Positions 7,116-16,373 of a stretch of DNA of 64,000 nucleotides are shown here, one piece after another; the stretch's first letter is position 1; each line of letters opens with the position of its first letter. Made by a program: the position numbers and the translations under genes. The stretch comes from an uncultured Eubacteriales bacterium. Lineage in GTDB: Bacteria > Bacillota > Clostridia > Christensenellales > Aristaeellaceae. The stretch is from contig CACZHW010000013.1 in the NCBI GenBank assembly GCA_902781095.1, forward strand, positions 1 through 64,000, read 5' to 3'. The notes under the pieces are model-generated. The model searched no databases and was not told the origin of the DNA. It was given only the letters and a program-made list of their open reading frames with translations.

Positions 7116-8939
7116 TTACTTCGTATCCGCGCCTTCGAAGCCGAGGCTCTCGAAGATGCCGCGCGCGCCGTTTCCGCGTAGATAGCTGAGGAAATTCTGC
7201 GCCGCGCCGGTGCTGATGCTGGTTTTGAGGATGGCACAGGGATACGGGACCTTGTCGGAAGGATTGGCCGCCGTATCGGAAACCAGCAGGTTGGCCGCGG
7301 CCGCGTCGCTGCCCAGCAGGATGCCTGCATCCACGGAACCGGTGAGCACGGCGCCCATGACTTCGTCTTCCGTCTTCAGCTCGATGAGCTGGCCGGCGGC
7401 TTTCAGCGCCTCCGTATCCAGCCCCTGGTAGAAGAGGATTTCACGGGCGAAGACGCCCGCGTCGTCATTCCCGGAGGAAACGGCAAGCTTCTTTCCGGCA
7501 GCCAGGTCGGAGGCCAGCGTGACGAAGCTCATGCGCGAGGCGCTGCTCTTCGGCTGCGCCAGCACGGCGGCGTCATAGGCCACCTGCGTGCGGCTGAGGC
7601 TGATGATCCTGTCCTGGCGCGTGGGGTTGCGCAGGGTGTCCTGCGCGTAGTCCAGCACGTCCATGGCTTCCTCGGTGCGGGTGATGACGAGGTCGCCGTA
7701 GGTTCCGTTCTGGATGCGCGCGTCCAGGAGGTCGCTGTCGTCGTAGATGAGGTTGATGCGGACGTTGTTGTTGGCCAGCTGGTAGTCATAGGCGATGCCG
7801 TTGAGGGCCGTGCGCAGCGTGCGGTCCGCATATACCGTCAGCGTGGTGACGGGTTCGGGCGTCGGAACCGGCGTGTAATAGTCGGAGGAGGAAGAAGACC
7901 GCTTCTTGATGGGCAGACGGACGGAATCGGACTTTTCACCCTTGCCGTAGTAGGCGTAAGCCGTGTTGACGACCTTGTGCTTGGTCTGGTCGGAGGACCT
8001 CACGGTGTAGCTCGCCCTGACGGTCACGCTCTCCTGCGGATACAGGTCGCGGATGATGGCGTCGCCGTCGCCGTCCACATAATACCCGCTTCCGTCCTTG
8101 ATCTTGGCGCCCTTGAGCGCCTCGTAGACGACGATCTTGGGGATGACTTCCGTACCCGTGTTGCTGACCACGATGTGGAAGCGTACCTTGTCTCCCGACT
8201 TGAAGAGGATGAGATCGCCGTTTTTGTCCCACTTCTTGTTGGTGATGTATTTGCAGATGCTGATGTGCACGCCGGTCTTCTGCCAGACGGCGAAGAGGTG
8301 GTTCTTTTCGCCGGATACATAGACCTTCTGGCCGGGTTTGAATTCCGCCGTAACCGCGTATTCATCCGCGGACCAGCCGAGGAACGTCCGGTCGGCCGGC
8401 TCGCTCCAGCCACAGCCGCCGAGGGAGAGCAGGGTGACCTTTTCTCCGTCCAGATATTCCTGGGTATAGCTCTTGTCCTTGCCGGTGTTGTAATGGTAGA
8501 TGATGCTGGCGGTCTTTTGCTTGCCGCTCTGCACCCACACGGCGTAGAGGGTCAGGCTCTTTTCCAGCTTGACCGTACGGCCGGGTGCGTATTCCGGGTC
8601 GGGCTTCAGCGCGAGCTTGTCCGTGGACCAGCCGGCAAACGCCTTTTCGGCAGCGCCTTCCTTTTCGGGTTTGGGCGGGGTCAGGGCGTCGCCGGGTTTG
8701 ATTTCAATCTTTGCGCCGGGCGCATACTTACCCTCGTCCGTCACGGAGCCTGAACCGCCGTTGGCGCTGTAGGTGATGGTCAGGTCGCCCTCCGCCGGCT
8801 TTTCATCCGGTTCCACCACGGGCAGGAGAATCGCCAGGCTGTAGGTCGTATGGCGGTCGGCCAGCGCCGGCAGGCAGAGGGCGCAGAGGAGAAGCAGCAC
8901 CAGCGCAAGCGGCAGGACCTTTCTCATCGCAGGTTTCAT
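7116..8939 (-). CDS. Secreted fusion: InlB-like repeats plus ModA-like binding domain
   Basis: A 607-residue exported protein with signal peptide at residues 1-27 (hydrophobic run ending ALA-DR). Residues about 52-136 and 144-220 are two InlB/Flg_new-type beta-grasp repeats, each ending in the F-x-GWS ... LYAVW or LFAVW signature. Residues about 225-345 resemble a DUF11-like beta-sandwich (VRFHIVVSNTGTE). A Ser/Pro linker (348-364) leads to 366-605, which resembles periplasmic molybdate-binding protein ModA: LTVYADRTL start, DLVITR, NDDAGVFAREIL, SVDAGILLGSDA, and a closing NFLSYLRG..ARGIFESLGF. No LPXTG or other anchor is visible. ATG 8939 was chosen (GAGGTG upstream); it begins just past the preceding gene's stop. 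Confidence 0.75.
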   Translation of the reverse strand: MKPAMRKVLPLALVLLLLCALCLPALADRHTTYSLAILLPVVEPDEKPAEGDLTITYSANGGSGSVTDEGKYAPGAKIEIKPGDALTPPKPEKEGAAEKAFAGWSTDKLALKPDPEYAPGRTVKLEKSLTLYAVWVQSGKQKTASIIYHYNTGKDKSYTQEYLDGEKVTLLSLGGCGWSEPADRTFLGWSADEYAVTAEFKPGQKVYVSGEKNHLFAVWQKTGVHISICKYITNKKWDKNGDLILFKSGDKVRFHIVVSNTGTEVIPKIVVYEALKGAKIKDGSGYYVDGDGDAIIRDLYPQESVTVRASYTVRSSDQTKHKVVNTAYAYYGKGEKSDSVRLPIKKRSSSSSDYYTPVPTPEPVTTLTVYADRTLRTALNGIAYDYQLANNNVRINLIYDDSDLLDARIQNGTYGDLVITRTEEAMDVLDYAQDTLRNPTRQDRIISLSRTQVAYDAAVLAQPKSSASRMSFVTLASDLAAGKKLAVSSGNDDAGVFAREILFYQGLDTEALKAAGQLIELKTEDEVMGAVLTGSVDAGILLGSDAAAANLLVSDTAANPSDKVPYPCAILKTSISTGAAQNFLSYLRGNGARGIFESLGFEGADTK

Positions 8940-8959
8940 GTTTACACCTCGCATGCGGA

Positions 8960-10531
8960 TCAGTCGATGGGCGTCACGGCGACGCGCCATTCGTTGCGGT
9001 AGTTGCTCTCGCTCAGTTTAAAGGTATAGCTGGTGCCATTGGCGCCGGAGACGTCTTCCCATCCGCTTCCACCGTTGGTCTGCCACTGAATGCTCACCTC
9101 ATCGGGTTCCGCGCCGGTGAGGGAGACGGACAGCGTAACCTTGTCCCCGATGTACAGGGCGTCGCCGGCATAGCTGTAATGGATTTCCGCGGTGATTTCG
9201 CGCTCTTCTTCTTCGGCAGCCTCTTCCTCAGCGGGAAGCGCTTCGCCTTCCGCACCCTCGGCCGGCAGCGCTTCTTCGCCCTCTGCGCCTTCGACGGCGG
9301 GTTCTTCTTCGCTCAGGTCATTCGCCTTTTCTTCAAGCCTTGAAAGCGCCTCGTCGAGTTCCTTCTGTTCTTCCTCGGTCAGCTCAGGCACGTCGTCGTC
9401 CGCCTCCGGGTCGGCAGGCGCTTCGGGATCTGTCGGGGTTTCGGTTGTTTCGGGAGTCTCCGGATCGACGGGTGCTTCGGGCTCCGCCGGCGTTTCCGGA
9501 GTCTCCGGATCAGCGGGCGCTTCGGGGTCCTCCGGCGTTTCCGGATTCACCGGGGCTTCCGGCTCCGCCGGCGTTTCCGGAGTCTCCGGATCAGCGGGCG
9601 CTTCGGGCTCCACCGGCGTTTCCGGATTCACCGGGGCTTCCGGATCGGCGGGAGTTCCGGGATCCGCCGGCGTGTCGGGCGTTTCGGGAGTCTCCGGATC
9701 GGCGGGCGTTTCAGGATCCGCCGGGGTTTCCGGATCGGCCGGGGCTTCCGGTTCCGCCGGTTCGTCGGGCGTTCCCGCCGCGTCGTCCTGTTTATCGGTA
9801 GAAGGCGCATCCGCCTCCTGCGGCGCCGGTGCCTCTTCGTCGTTTGCGGCCGGCTTCTCTTCCGGCTGCGCATCGCAGGCAGCAGGCGCCGGGTCAGGCT
9901 CTTCCTCTTTTACGGGCTCCCTGGTTTCAGGGGTTTCTTTAACCTGTTCGGGCTGTTCTTCCTCAGCCTTGCGCTCCTCTTCGGCCTTACGCTGGCGCTC
10001 TTCCTCAGCTTTGCGCTCCTCTTCGGTCTTGCGCTGGCGCTCTTCCTCAGCTTTGCGCTCCTCTTCGGCTTTGCGCTGGCGCTCTTCCTCAGCTTTGCGC
10101 TCCTCTTCGGTCTTGCGCTGGCGCTCTTCCTCGGCGCGGCGCTCCTCTTCGGCCTTGCGCTGGCGCTCTTCCTCGGCGCGGCGCTCCTCTTCGGCCTTGC
10201 GCTGGCGCTCTTCCTCAGCGCGGCGCTCCTCTTCGGCCTTGCGCTGGCGCTCTTCCTCTGCACGGCGCTCCTCTTCAGCCTTGCGCTGACGCTCTTCCTC
10301 GGCCTTGCGCTGACGCTCCTCCTCTTCGAGGCGAAGGCGCTCTTCCTCTTCTTCTTTAAGGCGCTTCAGTTCCTTCAGGCGGAGAATCTCCTCCTCAGTC
10401 AGATCGCCATACTCCTCGAAATCATCGTAATCGTCCGCGCCGGCCAGTGCAGGCACTCCACCCAGAAGAAGGCTGCCGGTCAGTACCCAGGCGGTCAGCT
10501 TGCGGGGATTGAACCATCTCTTCAGTTTCAT
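8960..10531 (-). CDS. Secreted repeat protein: charged helix, proline repeats, Ig-like tail
   Basis: A 523-residue protein with an N-terminal signal peptide (hydrophobic core TAWVLTGSLLLGGVPALA). Residues about 45-192 are Glu/Arg/Lys repeats with a 14-residue period built on RAEEERQRKAEEER, which predicts a long rigid single alpha-helix or coiled coil. Residues about 195-245 are acidic and proline-rich. About 245-375 is a PADPETP-type repeat typical of extended wall-spanning stalks. The last 80 residues resemble an Ig-like or bacterial immunoglobulin domain (VTLSVSLTG, SIQWQTNGGSGWEDVSG). No sorting motif is seen. It forms an operon with the downstream secreted fusion, which starts about 20 bp after its stop. 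Function unknown; a cell-surface spacer or adhesin is likely. Confidence 0.7.
   Translation of the reverse strand: MKLKRWFNPRKLTAWVLTGSLLLGGVPALAGADDYDDFEEYGDLTEEEILRLKELKRLKEEEEERLRLEEEERQRKAEEERQRKAEEERRAEEERQRKAEEERRAEEERQRKAEEERRAEEERQRKAEEERRAEEERQRKTEEERKAEEERQRKAEEERKAEEERQRKTEEERKAEEERQRKAEEERKAEEEQPEQVKETPETREPVKEEEPDPAPAACDAQPEEKPAANDEEAPAPQEADAPSTDKQDDAAGTPDEPAEPEAPADPETPADPETPADPETPETPDTPADPGTPADPEAPVNPETPVEPEAPADPETPETPAEPEAPVNPETPEDPEAPADPETPETPAEPEAPVDPETPETTETPTDPEAPADPEADDDVPELTEEEQKELDEALSRLEEKANDLSEEEPAVEGAEGEEALPAEGAEGEALPAEEEAAEEEEREITAEIHYSYAGDALYIGDKVTLSVSLTGAEPDEVSIQWQTNGGSGWEDVSGANGTSYTFKLSESNYRNEWRVAVTPID
9410..9770 (-). repeat. Degenerate tandem repeat coding for PADPETP stalk
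   Basis: Repeated short units (CCGGATCGGCGGG / GGGGCTTCCGG motifs on the plus strand) encode the proline, glutamate and aspartate stalk. Unit order is irregular. Copy number could vary by recombination or slippage. Confidence 0.7.
9955..10320 (-). repeat. 42-bp tandem repeats coding for the charged helix
   Basis: The plus strand shows repeats of GCGCTCCTCTTCGGCCTTGC and GCTGGCGCTCTTCCTC blocks with a period of 42 bp, about eight copies, differing by single bases. They encode the 14-residue Glu/Arg repeat. Confidence 0.8.
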
Positions 10532-10647: not shown

Positions 10648-13600
10648 TTACAATTCATTAAAAGTTCCTTTTTCATCCTCCCCGCCGGATCCCGTAAAGC
10701 TTTCCAGCGTATGCGTTTGAAGGATACGGCGCGGTCTCCGCGAGGGATCGAAGCCGCAGATGGCCGCATAATCGCAGTACCGGCAGGCATTCTGCTCCGG
10801 GTGTCCCTCCATTTCATACGGGCTGTCATCGATGAGGCCGGTGTTCGCCGCATCCGCCAGTTCCGCGGCTTTTGTGCGGGCGAAAGTGAGCAGTTTTTCC
10901 ATTCCCTCTGCATCGATCAGGCCGGCGGCGTCCTTGCGGACACTCCCGTCCGTCTTGATCATGCGGGCGTGCTTTGCATCCATCGCACGCAGGATCCGGA
11001 CGTCGGAGAGGGAAACCCCGGAGAGCGCGAAGCGCTCCGCGATTTTCTTTTCCACTTCTTCTTTTACGCGGCTGCCCGTTCGGACGGTCGGGTCCTCGAT
11101 GTGGAAGTAGAAAAAGCCGGCCGCTTCCATGCCCGGGCAGGCGGCCAGCGCCGCCGCCATATACAGCGTGAGCTGCAGCTGCAGCCCGTAGTAAATGCGG
11201 GTGGGATCCACCTGCCGGGCGCTGCTCTTGTAATCGACGATCCGAAGTGAGACGCCGTCCTCCTTCAGCACGTCGACGCGGTCGATCCGCCCCTTGAGAT
11301 AGAGGAAGGATCCGTCCAACAGGCGGATGGTCAGCGGCGGAAGCCCACCTTCTCCAAAGACGAGTTCCGTGCGGAAGGGGACAAAGCCGCTCTCGGCGTA
11401 CTGATTCAGGATGCCGCGGGATACGCTGGCCGCCGTGCGGCGGATGCGGCGCTCCATGGCCTCGGCCCGGCGGGTTTCACCGCGCGGGGTATTGCGCCAC
11501 TCTACGAGGAGCTCGTCCTGTGCCTGATGCAGCAGGCTGTCCAGCTTATCCTCCGGCAGGCGCGGAAAGTCCGGATCCGCCATCGCCAGGGAAACGAAGC
11601 GGTGCGCCGTTTCGTGGTAGAGCGTGCCCAGATCGGCCGCACTTGAGCCCAGCGTCACCTCTCTGGCGGGGCGCAGCCCGTAAGCGGTAAAGTAACGGTA
11701 GGGGCACTCCGCAAAGGTCTCCAGGCGGGTGACGCTCTGCGCGCTGCGCGATTTGCCGTATAGGCCGGGCGTCAGCTGCCGGTCCAGCATGCGGACAGGC
11801 GGCGCGTACAGCTGGCTCTCCAGCGTCCGAAGGGCTTGCGCGCCGTCCTCCGTCTTTGCAATCGCCGGCCCGACAGCGGCGTACGGTTCGTCCGAATCCA
11901 CCTCGTCGCGCAGGTGCAGCGCAAGAGCCAGGGCCGCGGGCTGCGGCGCGCACAAAAGCTCCGGCAGTTCCTCCGCGGACAGTCCGCCCTGCGGCCGCAG
12001 CGCGGGGAAAAGCCTGCGGAGCGCGTGCACGGCTTCCCCTTCTCTCAGGGCACTGCCGCTTTCGCTTGCCAGCGCATAGGAGACGACGAGTTCTTCACGC
12101 ACGCCGGAGAAGAGCTTCAGCAGATCAAGCCGCGCCAGCGCGCTCCGCTCCCGTTCGCTCATGCCGAGATAGACGCCTTCCGATTCGACGGCGGCCTGCT
12201 CCGCGGGGGTGAAAAGCCCGCCGGAGGGTTCCGCTTCCCTGTCGTTCTGTCCCAGGACAAACAGGGTATGGACGCTGCCCGTGCGCAGGTTTCCGATTTC
12301 GCCGCAGATGACGGCGCCTTGTGCCGGCGGCAGGGCAGAGAGCTCCAGGGCGGACAAACCGCTCTCCAGCAGCCTGCGGACGAGGCGGCCGGAGACGGTG
12401 CACCCGCCGAGCAGTTCATGCAGCTGGTCGAGCGTCTCCATCAGCGCATTCCAAAGCTGCGCACAATCCTGCGCCTCGCTGTCCATGCCGCGCTGCGCCA
12501 GTTCTTCCCGCATACGCTGCAGCGTAGCATAGGCGTTAACGCCGTCCAGCAGGTCGAGAACGGCGGCGATGACGTCGTCCGCCCCGCCGGCCTCCGCCAT
12601 GGCAGCGGCGAGGCGGGAGAGCGGTTCGGCCGCCTTCCTGCGGCAGTCCTCCAGGGCAGCGAGCGCTTCGTCGGTCATCTGGTTTCCGGCCTTATACCGG
12701 AAGGGCCGGCCGAAAGCGGAGCCGCGGATTTCCATCTGCTCGCAGTAGGCGCACAGGTCGTCCGCCTCGCGCGGGGACAGCGGAAGAAAGCCGGAAGCGA
12801 TACACTCCGTGACCTCCTGCATGTGCCAGGCGTCCCCCTCTTTTGCACCCAGTGCACAAAGCAGGAACCTGGAAAGCGGGTGGGCGGACGCTGTCCGCTT
12901 TTCCGCCGTATAGGCGGCGATGCCGTACTGCCTGAGAACGGTTGAAAGAAGGGCGGGGTAATCCGCACCGGCGGGATAGGCGACGGCAAAATCCTCTGCG
13001 GGCCTGCCGGCCGCCATTTCCCTGCGGATGGCAGCGGCTGCCAGATGCACCTCACGGCGGATGTTGCTCGCGGCGAGCAAACGGATGTGGGCCGGGGCGT
13101 CCCGGTACGGCTCTTCGCCGAGGGCAAAGAGCCCCGCTTCCGCCGCGGCGATGTCCTCCGGCGCACCAAGGGGGGCCTTGAAGCAGTTCCGCACAACCGG
13201 CACGCCCCGCCCGGTCGCGAGCAGACAAAGCCTGTCGAGGCTGGCGTTGACAGGGGCAAAAAGCGCGCCGTCAGGGGCGCCGTTGTCGTCCGACTCCACC
13301 ATGAGGCACAGCGAAGCTGCAGATGCGGCCGTGCCGAGCAGCTCCGCGGCGAAGGAGGGCGTGATGATGTCAAAACCCGTTACGAAGACGTGACAGCCGC
13401 GCAGGACGCCGGAGGCCTCGCGGCGCTCCTCCACTTCCTGCAGGATGTCTTCCGCGTCAGCCAGCTTGCCGCCGGTGAGCGCTTCGTAGCGTGCCCAGAT
13501 TCTGGCGATATCGGCCAGTTTGACGGCCGGAAGCCCGTCTTTTTTCCCGGCCAGCTCAAGCAGCAGCTCCGGCGTCAGGCCGGCGCGTTTCATGCAGGCG

Positions 13601-13968
13601 ATCACCGTGCTGAGGTGGGCGGAAAAAGCCTGGCGGCCCTCCTCGCCGATACGGCCGTACAGCCGCAGTCCGGCCTGCTCCGCCTCCAGCGCGGCGCAGA
13701 GAACCATGCGTTTGCCCGTCTCGTCAAACGGGGTGCGGGCGGGGCGGCCGGCGCGCTCGAAGATGCGCTCGCGCAGCCTGCCGGGGGAGAGCACATCGAT
13801 GAGGAAAGAGCCGGGGAGCGACAGGCCTTCCATGAGCAGCAGCTCGGTCCGCAGCGTCTCCTGCGAGGGCACGAGCACCATGCACCGCTCGTTTTCGCGG
13901 ATGTGCAGACCCACTCTGCGGATCAGTTCCGCATCAAGCCGGCGGGGCCGGGCTGTCAGTATTTCCAT
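10648..13968 (-). CDS. addB: AddB/RexB-type helicase-nuclease subunit
   Basis: A 1106-residue protein of the AddB family, the partner of AddA in double-strand break resection at Chi-like sites. The C-terminal RecB-type nuclease is visible as GRIDRVDV ... LRIVDYKSS. The four iron-sulfur cysteines are present: one in ETFAECPYRYF and three in the tail motif CRYCDYAAIC (CxxCx5C). The N-terminus reads ILTARPRRLDAEL where Bacillus AddB has a Walker A GRSGSGKT, so ATP binding by this subunit is probably lost, as in RexB. ATG 13968 has GGAGG upstream; an upstream extension would run through a parS site. No addA lies next to it on either side, which is unusual. Confidence 0.85.
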   Translation of the reverse strand: MEILTARPRRLDAELIRRVGLHIRENERCMVLVPSQETLRTELLLMEGLSLPGSFLIDVLSPGRLRERIFERAGRPARTPFDETGKRMVLCAALEAEQAGLRLYGRIGEEGRQAFSAHLSTVIACMKRAGLTPELLLELAGKKDGLPAVKLADIARIWARYEALTGGKLADAEDILQEVEERREASGVLRGCHVFVTGFDIITPSFAAELLGTAASAASLCLMVESDDNGAPDGALFAPVNASLDRLCLLATGRGVPVVRNCFKAPLGAPEDIAAAEAGLFALGEEPYRDAPAHIRLLAASNIRREVHLAAAAIRREMAAGRPAEDFAVAYPAGADYPALLSTVLRQYGIAAYTAEKRTASAHPLSRFLLCALGAKEGDAWHMQEVTECIASGFLPLSPREADDLCAYCEQMEIRGSAFGRPFRYKAGNQMTDEALAALEDCRRKAAEPLSRLAAAMAEAGGADDVIAAVLDLLDGVNAYATLQRMREELAQRGMDSEAQDCAQLWNALMETLDQLHELLGGCTVSGRLVRRLLESGLSALELSALPPAQGAVICGEIGNLRTGSVHTLFVLGQNDREAEPSGGLFTPAEQAAVESEGVYLGMSERERSALARLDLLKLFSGVREELVVSYALASESGSALREGEAVHALRRLFPALRPQGGLSAEELPELLCAPQPAALALALHLRDEVDSDEPYAAVGPAIAKTEDGAQALRTLESQLYAPPVRMLDRQLTPGLYGKSRSAQSVTRLETFAECPYRYFTAYGLRPAREVTLGSSAADLGTLYHETAHRFVSLAMADPDFPRLPEDKLDSLLHQAQDELLVEWRNTPRGETRRAEAMERRIRRTAASVSRGILNQYAESGFVPFRTELVFGEGGLPPLTIRLLDGSFLYLKGRIDRVDVLKEDGVSLRIVDYKSSARQVDPTRIYYGLQLQLTLYMAAALAACPGMEAAGFFYFHIEDPTVRTGSRVKEEVEKKIAERFALSGVSLSDVRILRAMDAKHARMIKTDGSVRKDAAGLIDAEGMEKLLTFARTKAAELADAANTGLIDDSPYEMEGHPEQNACRYCDYAAICGFDPSRRPRRILQTHTLESFTGSGGEDEKGTFNEL

Positions 13969-13996
13969 GCTTAACCTCCGGGTGGTACAGGTGGAA

Positions 13997-14012
13997 TGTT
14001 TCACGTGAAACA
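13997..14012. promoter_or_regulatory. parS: parS centromere site 1
   Basis: TGTTTCACGTGAAACA, a perfect 16-bp palindrome that matches the Bacillus subtilis ParB (Spo0J) binding consensus. It lies in the divergent gap between addB and a phosphoesterase. ParB loads here and spreads; it organises the origin region and recruits SMC. Confidence 0.93.
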
Positions 14013-14039
14013 CCGTGTCACGCGGAAGCACCGGTACGA

Positions 14040-14055
14040 TGTTTCACGTGAAACA
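14040..14055. promoter_or_regulatory. parS: parS centromere site 2
   Basis: A second identical copy of TGTTTCACGTGAAACA, starting 43 bp after the first. Two perfect 16-mers so close together cannot be chance. The spacing is about four helical turns. Confidence 0.93.
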
Positions 14056-14116
14056 TAAAAGGGATTGGGGAAGGGGCTGTCGAATTAAAACCCGACATTG
14101 TTTGCGGAGGGACTGT

Positions 14117-14965
14117 ATGCTGATCGCTCTCATTTCGGATATTCACGCCAATTTGCCCGCGCTGGAAGCGGTTCTCTCGGCCGTACGGCGCCACCATCCG
14201 GACCGGATCCTCTCACTGGGCGACCAGATCAACCTTGGGCCCAGCCCGCGGGAAGTGCTCTCTCTTTTAAAGGAGAACGGCGTTTGCTGCCTGCATGGCA
14301 ACCACGAGCGCTACGTCCTGTCCGCCCTTGACGGGGACGCGGCGTACGCCGGCGCCAATTTCGGATCCGTGCGCTGGAACGCGAAAAGGCTGCGCAAAGA
14401 AGAGATTTCCTTTCCCGGTACGCTGGAGCTGGAAGGGATAACCTTCTGCCACGCGCTCCCCGGGGACGACCGGTTCCCCGTCTTTGATCCGGCGCGCGCA
14501 CTGCCTCTTCTCCGCCGGCGATACACGGAGGGCTTTACGCACATCGTCTGCGGGCACGGACATAACCCGACGCATTACCGCATGCCGCATCTGCGGCTGG
14601 ACAGCATCGGGGCTGTCGGGTGCATGGACGACGGCGTCCCCGGCGCAGCGCCCTATACGATGCTGGAATCCTCCGGGGAGGACGCGGTTCTGCGGCCCTA
14701 TTACGCGGCGTTCGATGTGACGAGGATGCCGGGGCTCTTCCGCTCTTCCGGCCTTGCCGAAGCCTGTCCGGTCATGGCGCGCATCGCGTGCACGCAGATG
14801 ATGACCGGCCGGGACTATCTGGTGGAGTTCGTCCGGCGCGCAAGCCGGATCTCACAGGAACGGGGCGAAGAACAGATCTCCCGGGAAACGTGGCTTTATG
14901 CGGACGGCCTCTTTCCGTGGCCGGACGGGAAAACCACGTGCGAATACTGGTCCTCACCGTCGTAA
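14117..14965 (+). CDS. Metallophosphoesterase (YfcE/DHH-like calcineurin fold)
   Basis: A 282-residue calcineurin-type phosphoesterase. The metal motifs are in order: SDIHAN (D-x-H), LGDQINLG (GD), GNHERY (GNH), and CGHGHNPTHYR (GHxH). Such proteins hydrolyse phosphodiesters or phosphomonoesters with Mn or Fe; the substrate here is unknown. ATG 14117 was chosen because GGAGG lies 6 nt upstream and the first motif starts 8 residues later. A longer reading frame from 14015 would translate the second parS site into FHVKH, a known artefact. Its end is adjacent to the convergent mnmE stop. Confidence 0.85.
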   Translation: MLIALISDIHANLPALEAVLSAVRRHHPDRILSLGDQINLGPSPREVLSLLKENGVCCLHGNHERYVLSALDGDAAYAGANFGSVRWNAKRLRKEEISFPGTLELEGITFCHALPGDDRFPVFDPARALPLLRRRYTEGFTHIVCGHGHNPTHYRMPHLRLDSIGAVGCMDDGVPGAAPYTMLESSGEDAVLRPYYAAFDVTRMPGLFRSSGLAEACPVMARIACTQMMTGRDYLVEFVRRASRISQERGEEQISRETWLYADGLFPWPDGKTTCEYWSSPS

Positions 14966-16318
14966 TCACTTGCCGACGCAGAACCTGGCAAAGACCTCGT
15001 CGATCACGCGCTCGGACATCGTTTCACCCGTGATCTCCCCCAGTGCATCCAGCGCGGCGGACAGATCGATGGCCGCCACGTCGGTTTCAAAACCGTCCTG
15101 CAGAGACGCAACGGCGTCGCGGAGCGCTGCGCAGGCCCGCGTGGCGGCCTCGGCGTGCCTCGCCTGGGTCAGAACGGCGGTTTCGCCGGCCTCCGGCATC
15201 GCAAAGGCTGCAAGCGCGGACCGGAGCTGCGCAAGCCCTTCCCCGGACAGCGCACAGACCGACACTGCGGGAATCCCGGGGAGCACCGCTTCCAGCGCCC
15301 CGGTCGGAAAGGCCTGCGGCAAGTCCTCCTTGCTGATGACGATCAGGTGGGGCTGCACCTCTTTGGCCAGCGCCAGATCGTCTGCCGCCAGCGGGGCGGA
15401 TCCGTCGATGATCAGCAGGCGGACGTCCGCCTGCGCGAGCGCTTTTCTGGCGCGCTCGATGCCGATGCGCTCCACCTCGTCGCCCGTCGCCCGGAGCCCG
15501 GCCGTGTCCGTCAGGATCACCGGATAACCGTCGATCTGGGTGCGCGCCTCTATGGCGTCCCGCGTCGTTCCGGGGATTGCGGTGACGATTGCCCGGTCCT
15601 CCCCGAGAAGCGCATTGAGCAGGCTGCTCTTGCCGGCGTTGGGCCGCCCGCAGAGCGCCACGCGGAGGCCTTCGTCCTCCATTCTTCCGCTGCGGGGATC
15701 GATGGAAGTACGAAGGCGCTCTTCCAGCTCCCGGCACCGGGTGAGCAGCGCGTCCCGGGTTTCCACTTCTTCCACCTCGTCCGGAAAGTCGATCGCGGCG
15801 GACAGGGCGGCCAGCATCGCGATGATGTCCTCGCGCGCAGCTTTTATAAAGGAAGAAACGCCCCCCTCCATCTGCCGCACGGCGCTGTGCATCGCCCGTT
15901 CGCTGTCCGCGCGGATCATGCGCATGACGGCTTCCGCCTGGGAGAGGTCGATGCGCCCCAGCGCGAAGGCGCGGTAGGTGAACTCGCCGGGCTCGGCAGG
16001 CCTGGCGCCGTACCGCAGCAGAATGCGGAGGATGCGGGAACACAGCGCCTGTGAGCCGTGGCAGTGGATTTCGGCGACATCCTGGCGCGTATAGCTTCTG
16101 GGGCCGGGCATCAGCACGGCCATCGCTTCGTCAGCGGTCTTGTCGCCGTCCATCACCCTGCCGTAGGTCAGCATGCGCGGGACGAGAGCGCCGCCCGCGG
16201 GTAAAAAGACCTTACCCAGGATTTCCCCCGCGCGCGGCCCGCTCATGCGGAGGATGGCGATGCCGCCTTCTCCCGGCGGGGTCGCCTGTGCGCAGATCGT
16301 ATCTTCAAGATTGTGCAT
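14966..16318 (-). CDS. mnmE: tRNA modification GTPase MnmE
   Basis: 450 residues. MnmE works with MnmG to install the (carboxymethyl)aminomethyl group on wobble U34 of certain tRNAs. The N-terminal domain begins DTICAQATPPGEGGIAI as in the family. The inserted G domain has G1 GRPNAGKSS (residues 224-232), G3 DTAGLR (271-276) and a G4 reading SKED (329-332) instead of NKxD. The C-terminus ends FCVGK, the family's flavin/formyl-folate-site CxGK tail. ATG 16318 was chosen, with AGGAG 9 nt upstream. mnmG is not adjacent. In Bacillota mnmE usually lies near the origin, in line with the neighbouring parS sites. Confidence 0.96.
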   Translation of the reverse strand: MHNLEDTICAQATPPGEGGIAILRMSGPRAGEILGKVFLPAGGALVPRMLTYGRVMDGDKTADEAMAVLMPGPRSYTRQDVAEIHCHGSQALCSRILRILLRYGARPAEPGEFTYRAFALGRIDLSQAEAVMRMIRADSERAMHSAVRQMEGGVSSFIKAAREDIIAMLAALSAAIDFPDEVEEVETRDALLTRCRELEERLRTSIDPRSGRMEDEGLRVALCGRPNAGKSSLLNALLGEDRAIVTAIPGTTRDAIEARTQIDGYPVILTDTAGLRATGDEVERIGIERARKALAQADVRLLIIDGSAPLAADDLALAKEVQPHLIVISKEDLPQAFPTGALEAVLPGIPAVSVCALSGEGLAQLRSALAAFAMPEAGETAVLTQARHAEAATRACAALRDAVASLQDGFETDVAAIDLSAALDALGEITGETMSERVIDEVFARFCVGK

Positions 16319-16345
16319 ACACCGCATCTCCTCTCCAACGGATAG

Positions 16346-16373
16346 ATTATACCACAATTGCCCGCTCTTGCCA
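16346..16373 (-). promoter_or_regulatory. mnmE promoter
   Basis: On the minus strand: TATAAT (16346-16351) preceded by TGG (extended -10), with a weak -35 TGGCAA at 16368-16373. The -35 occupies the same bases as the guaA -35 on the other strand. Confidence 0.6.

Follow-up and report, generated by a model that had tools for sequence, protein, structure and literature searches.

A close parS pair as the predicted origin-proximal ParABS centromere of an uncultured Eubacteriales bacterium

The stretch of DNA analyzed here (the window, 64,000 nucleotides) corresponds to C13:1-64000 of a 78.6-kb contig from an uncultured Eubacteriales bacterium. Between the divergent addB gene and a gene for a calcineurin-like phosphoesterase there is a gap of 148 bp, and this gap houses two copies of a 16-bp palindrome matching the consensus of parS, the binding site of ParB. 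The features of the locus are the following:

10648 to 13968, minus strand: addB, helicase-exonuclease subunit (NCBIfam TIGR02773, E 9e-139, below the curated cut-off; synteny)
13997 to 14012, no strand: parS site 1, perfect 16-bp palindrome TGTTTCACGTGAAACA (window pattern search)
14013 to 14039, no strand: spacer between the parS sites, 27 bp (genus comparison)
14040 to 14055, no strand: parS site 2, perfect 16-bp palindrome TGTTTCACGTGAAACA (window pattern search)
14117 to 14965, plus strand: calcineurin-like metallophosphoesterase (Pfam PF00149, 47.2 bits; 52-80% identity in congeners)
14966 to 16349, start approximate, minus strand: mnmE (trmE), tRNA-modification GTPase (named from the translation; orthologues beside the array)

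A sequence-only reading of the window had described two perfect parS sites 43 bp apart, and both 16-mers are indeed perfect. The distance holds from start to start; 27 bp lie between the sites, and the pair spans 59 bp in total. The region also has a strong single-strand fold (z -6.6), which is a trivial result since it follows from the presence of two palindromic copies.

The pair affects how the flanking genes are called. The addB gene has an ATG at 13968 on the minus strand and the phosphoesterase gene has one at 14117 on the plus strand. The longest open reading frames, on the other hand, begin at start codons further upstream and extend across the palindromes: that at 10648 to 14031 (minus strand) begins MLPRDTVFHVKH and that at 14015 to 14965 (plus strand) begins MSRGSTGTMFHVKH. 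The earlier remark that the sites explain gene calls starting with FHVKH is thus borne out for both neighbors. These upstream starts are most likely false and the palindromes there not coding, and the true start of AddB is likely MEILTARP... rather than the extended GTG.

Allowing up to three mismatches to TGTTTCACGTGAAACA, the pair gives the only matches in the window, while shuffled windows contain 0.14 matches on average at the same threshold and none of 100 shuffles contains two. When the search was extended to the whole assembly, a draft of 50 contigs and 2.7 Mb that is 89.6% complete and from which extra parS sites may be missing, no further site was found at up to two mismatches, and a reversed control pattern gave no match. 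The proposed search for other such 16-mers thus returned nothing beyond the pair, and the confinement of parS to the origin region is non-random.

We now turn to the position of the pair relative to the replication origin, which the sequence-only reading had placed nearby. Beyond the end of the window, the same contig carries dnaN (67309-68415) and recF (68421-69515), followed by four DnaA boxes at C13:69520-69573, all some 53-56 kb from parS. The cumulative GC skew of the contig has its minimum near 68 kb. The origin is therefore likely to lie at about 69.5 kb on C13, some 55 kb from the pair. On the other hand, the skew is about zero over the window's first 32 kb, which counts against the origin-proximal reading. 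mnmE, adjacent to the phosphoesterase gene, lies in the origin region in many Firmicutes. Another group of DnaA boxes is found at C8:41752-41904, just upstream of dnaA, and the skew does not change sign there. The region C13:67309-69573 thus combines dnaN-recF and a tight DnaA-box group at the skew minimum, apart from dnaA, and the origin may be situated at dnaN-recF instead of at dnaA.

The present assembly has parS, parB and dnaA each on a contig of its own, and the distances from parS to the other two were therefore taken from congeners in which the array shares a contig with these genes. The array is 10.4 kb from parB in G007 and G005, 10.8 kb in G002 and 8.2 kb in G015, and it is 42 kb from dnaA in G007 and 19 kb in G003. 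The gene order in G007 and G005 is guaA, mnmE, phosphoesterase, array, addB, further genes, parB and parA. The predicted proximity to the origin is thus upheld both by the contig itself and by the congeners.

The genome encodes a single protein with a ParB_N domain, namely a ParB of 290 amino acids (C14:51949-52821) that also has the HTH_ParB domain. Its best match among solved structures is Spo0J of Bacillus subtilis (6sdk, E 2e-55), and the GERR motif is common to both proteins, which supports the earlier assignment of the palindromes as predicted ParB-binding sites. Directly upstream of parB lies parA (C14:52825-53850), identified by reading the Walker-type MSKIIAVTNQKGGVGKTTT in its translation, and the two genes are kept together in congeners. 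A 1204-aa SMC-like frame with both SMC_N halves is found on C7, and DnaA is encoded on C8. The sequence-only reading would have abandoned a centromere if the locus were far from dnaA and ParB absent from the genome; ParB is present and the locus is origin-proximal.

One alternative considered is that the sites are bound not by ParB but by the nucleoid occlusion protein Noc or some other ParB-like protein. Noc is a paralogue of ParB, and the ParB found here does score 219 bits against the Noc model TIGR04285. However, this is below the Noc cut-off of 315 bits, the protein is the only one with ParB_N and its gene adjoins parA, and the site has the parS consensus sequence, from which Noc sites differ. 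We consider this alternative extremely unlikely.

To place the pair in a wider context, we compared 60 genomes including the present one, using draft assemblies and with only one genus densely sampled. Of the 60, 50 contain a site with no more than one mismatch. Twenty-three arrays of the genus were readable, with 2-8 sites each, and 19 of them are located between addB and the phosphoesterase gene. The largest is an 8-site array on G018:C80, in which the sites are perfect or have one mismatch and extend over ca 570 bp of the same gap. Among the 45 spacings between neighboring sites, which share ancestry in part even though no alignment of the spacers could be made by eye, 33 fall at 34-48 bp, with a mode of 38-39 bp and a lowest value of 34 bp. 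In the 68 sites of the genus the 16-mer is near-invariant and about two A/T positions are conserved on each flank, with no conservation further out, which means that the length of the spacer is kept while its sequence is free. Helical phasing was also considered, but by eye the spacings at 34-48 bp form one broad lobe with no 10.5-bp combs.

These data also bear on the possibility that the pair arose by chance or by an assembly duplication of one site. Two identical 16-mers just 43 bp apart could give that impression. However, neither the spacer nor the flanks are duplicated, independent congeners have 2-8 sites in the same gap with different spacers, and the shuffles described above yield far fewer matches. 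Taken together, the shuffles and the unalignable congener spacers rule this explanation out, leaving it a negligible probability.

Another option is that the palindromes serve mainly in regulation, as an operator or leader element for addB, the phosphoesterase gene or both, and not as a centromere. The array does lie between divergent genes, and in 17 congeners there is a perfect extended -10 element (TGGTATAAT in most, otherwise a close variant) that faces addB from the phosphoesterase side of the array. Since this element is located beyond the array, transcription of addB would begin ahead of the array, which would then form part of the mRNA leader. In the present window, however, a search for the extended -10 motif gave no match. 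In addition, the 16-mer corresponds to the ParB consensus and occurs nowhere else in the genome, and sister genera carry the same pairs beside other genes. A mainly regulatory function is therefore very unlikely, although an operator role for addB could coexist with the centromere role, and addB may be damped as a side effect of ParB spreading.

Among the sister genera referred to above, G029 and G031 have the pair 37-38 bp apart and beside a homologue of the gene of unknown function at C13:69715-70926. In G035 the two sites are 60 bp apart, and the gene downstream of them, recognized as addA-like by reading its motifs, adjoins the pair in place of addB.

The surroundings of addB differ in the present genome. 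The next gene after addB encodes a repeat-rich protein, as in the nearest relative G006, and addA is on a separate contig (C30:15504-19001), which indicates that a conserved gene block has been rearranged. The repeat-rich protein (window 8960-10531) is predicted to have 523 amino acids, mostly low-complexity repeats of the RKAEEERR and PEAPADPETPE types, and a Pfam search gave no match for it. It is adjoined by a solute-binding and repeat-domain protein (7116-8990), and among the genomes compared the two genes are found next to addB only in this species and in G006.

Beyond the family, the matches listed include perfect close pairs from Streptomyces, Bacteroidetes, Proteobacteria and many Clostridia. 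In a sample of 391 species of the class, 43 (ca 11%) have a perfect pair with a spacing of 46 bp or less, and 26 have a pair at 47-77 bp. In other families of the class there are pairs only 23-29 bp apart, which rules out a universal minimum spacing of 34 bp and shows that there is no universal lower limit. The notion, put forward in the sequence-only reading, that single, dispersed parS sites are the usual case does not stand: one or a few closely placed sites are common, and wide scatter is limited to a few lineages including Bacilli (PMC8357415). Tight parS clusters are thus common in bacteria, and the present find is real but ordinary.

It is instructive to compare the locus with known systems. 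In Caulobacter crescentus, at least five parS sites lie within 5 kb (PMC5815017); as there, we have a close cluster on one arm near the origin as the predicted nucleation locus of ParB, but with only two sites within 59 bp and in a different gene neighborhood. In Pseudomonas aeruginosa, a single site of the origin-proximal parS1-4 cluster is necessary and sufficient for segregation (PMC4368675). The clustering near the origin is similar here, whereas that organism has ten sites, nine of them probably within coding sequence (PMC4368675), and the present two are intergenic. The 16-bp consensus is identical to that of the Bacillus subtilis parS/Spo0J/Soj system, whose Spo0J (6sdk) is the nearest solved structure to the ParB; there, however, eight sites extend over about 0.75 Mb (PMC8357415), as compared to a single compact locus here.

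On the basis of the perfect consensus sites that are unique in the assembly, the presence of genes for ParB, ParA, SMC and DnaA, the proximity to the origin and the conservation of the array in the genus, we propose that the pair is very probably the origin-proximal chromosomal ParABS centromere of this bacterium, whose named relatives place it in the class Clostridia. As predicted from the sequence, ParB almost certainly has no other strong docking point on the chromosome, which strengthens the earlier suggestion of a main loading site. By analogy with the known ParABS pathway, a ParB dimer would bind each palindrome, and the CTP-loaded protein would close into a clamp and slide into the flanking kilobases. 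Shortly after replication, ParA would then pull apart the region coated with ParB, and SMC would be loaded by ParB at the parS locus. Two sites about 40 bp apart would in this way make a strong single loading locus.

A further possibility, which we regard as rather doubtful, is that the tandem pitch is itself under selection, such that neighboring sites act as a unit, e.g. in concerted loading of ParB clamps, and that, as genera diverge, such a unit arises anew at other intergenic positions. These would be the addB/phosphoesterase gap here, the position upstream of the addA-like gene in G035, and that beside the conserved unknown gene in G029 and G031. A constrained pitch combined with a location that moves between related genera is the only mildly new point of the present work.

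The results locate the predicted centromere, and with it the origin side, in a Clostridia chromosome for which there is only a draft assembly. The ca 23 congeneric arrays, having 2-8 near-invariant sites and free spacers, constitute a natural series on spacing versus clamp loading, and this series could show whether parS spacing matters to the loading of ParB clamps.
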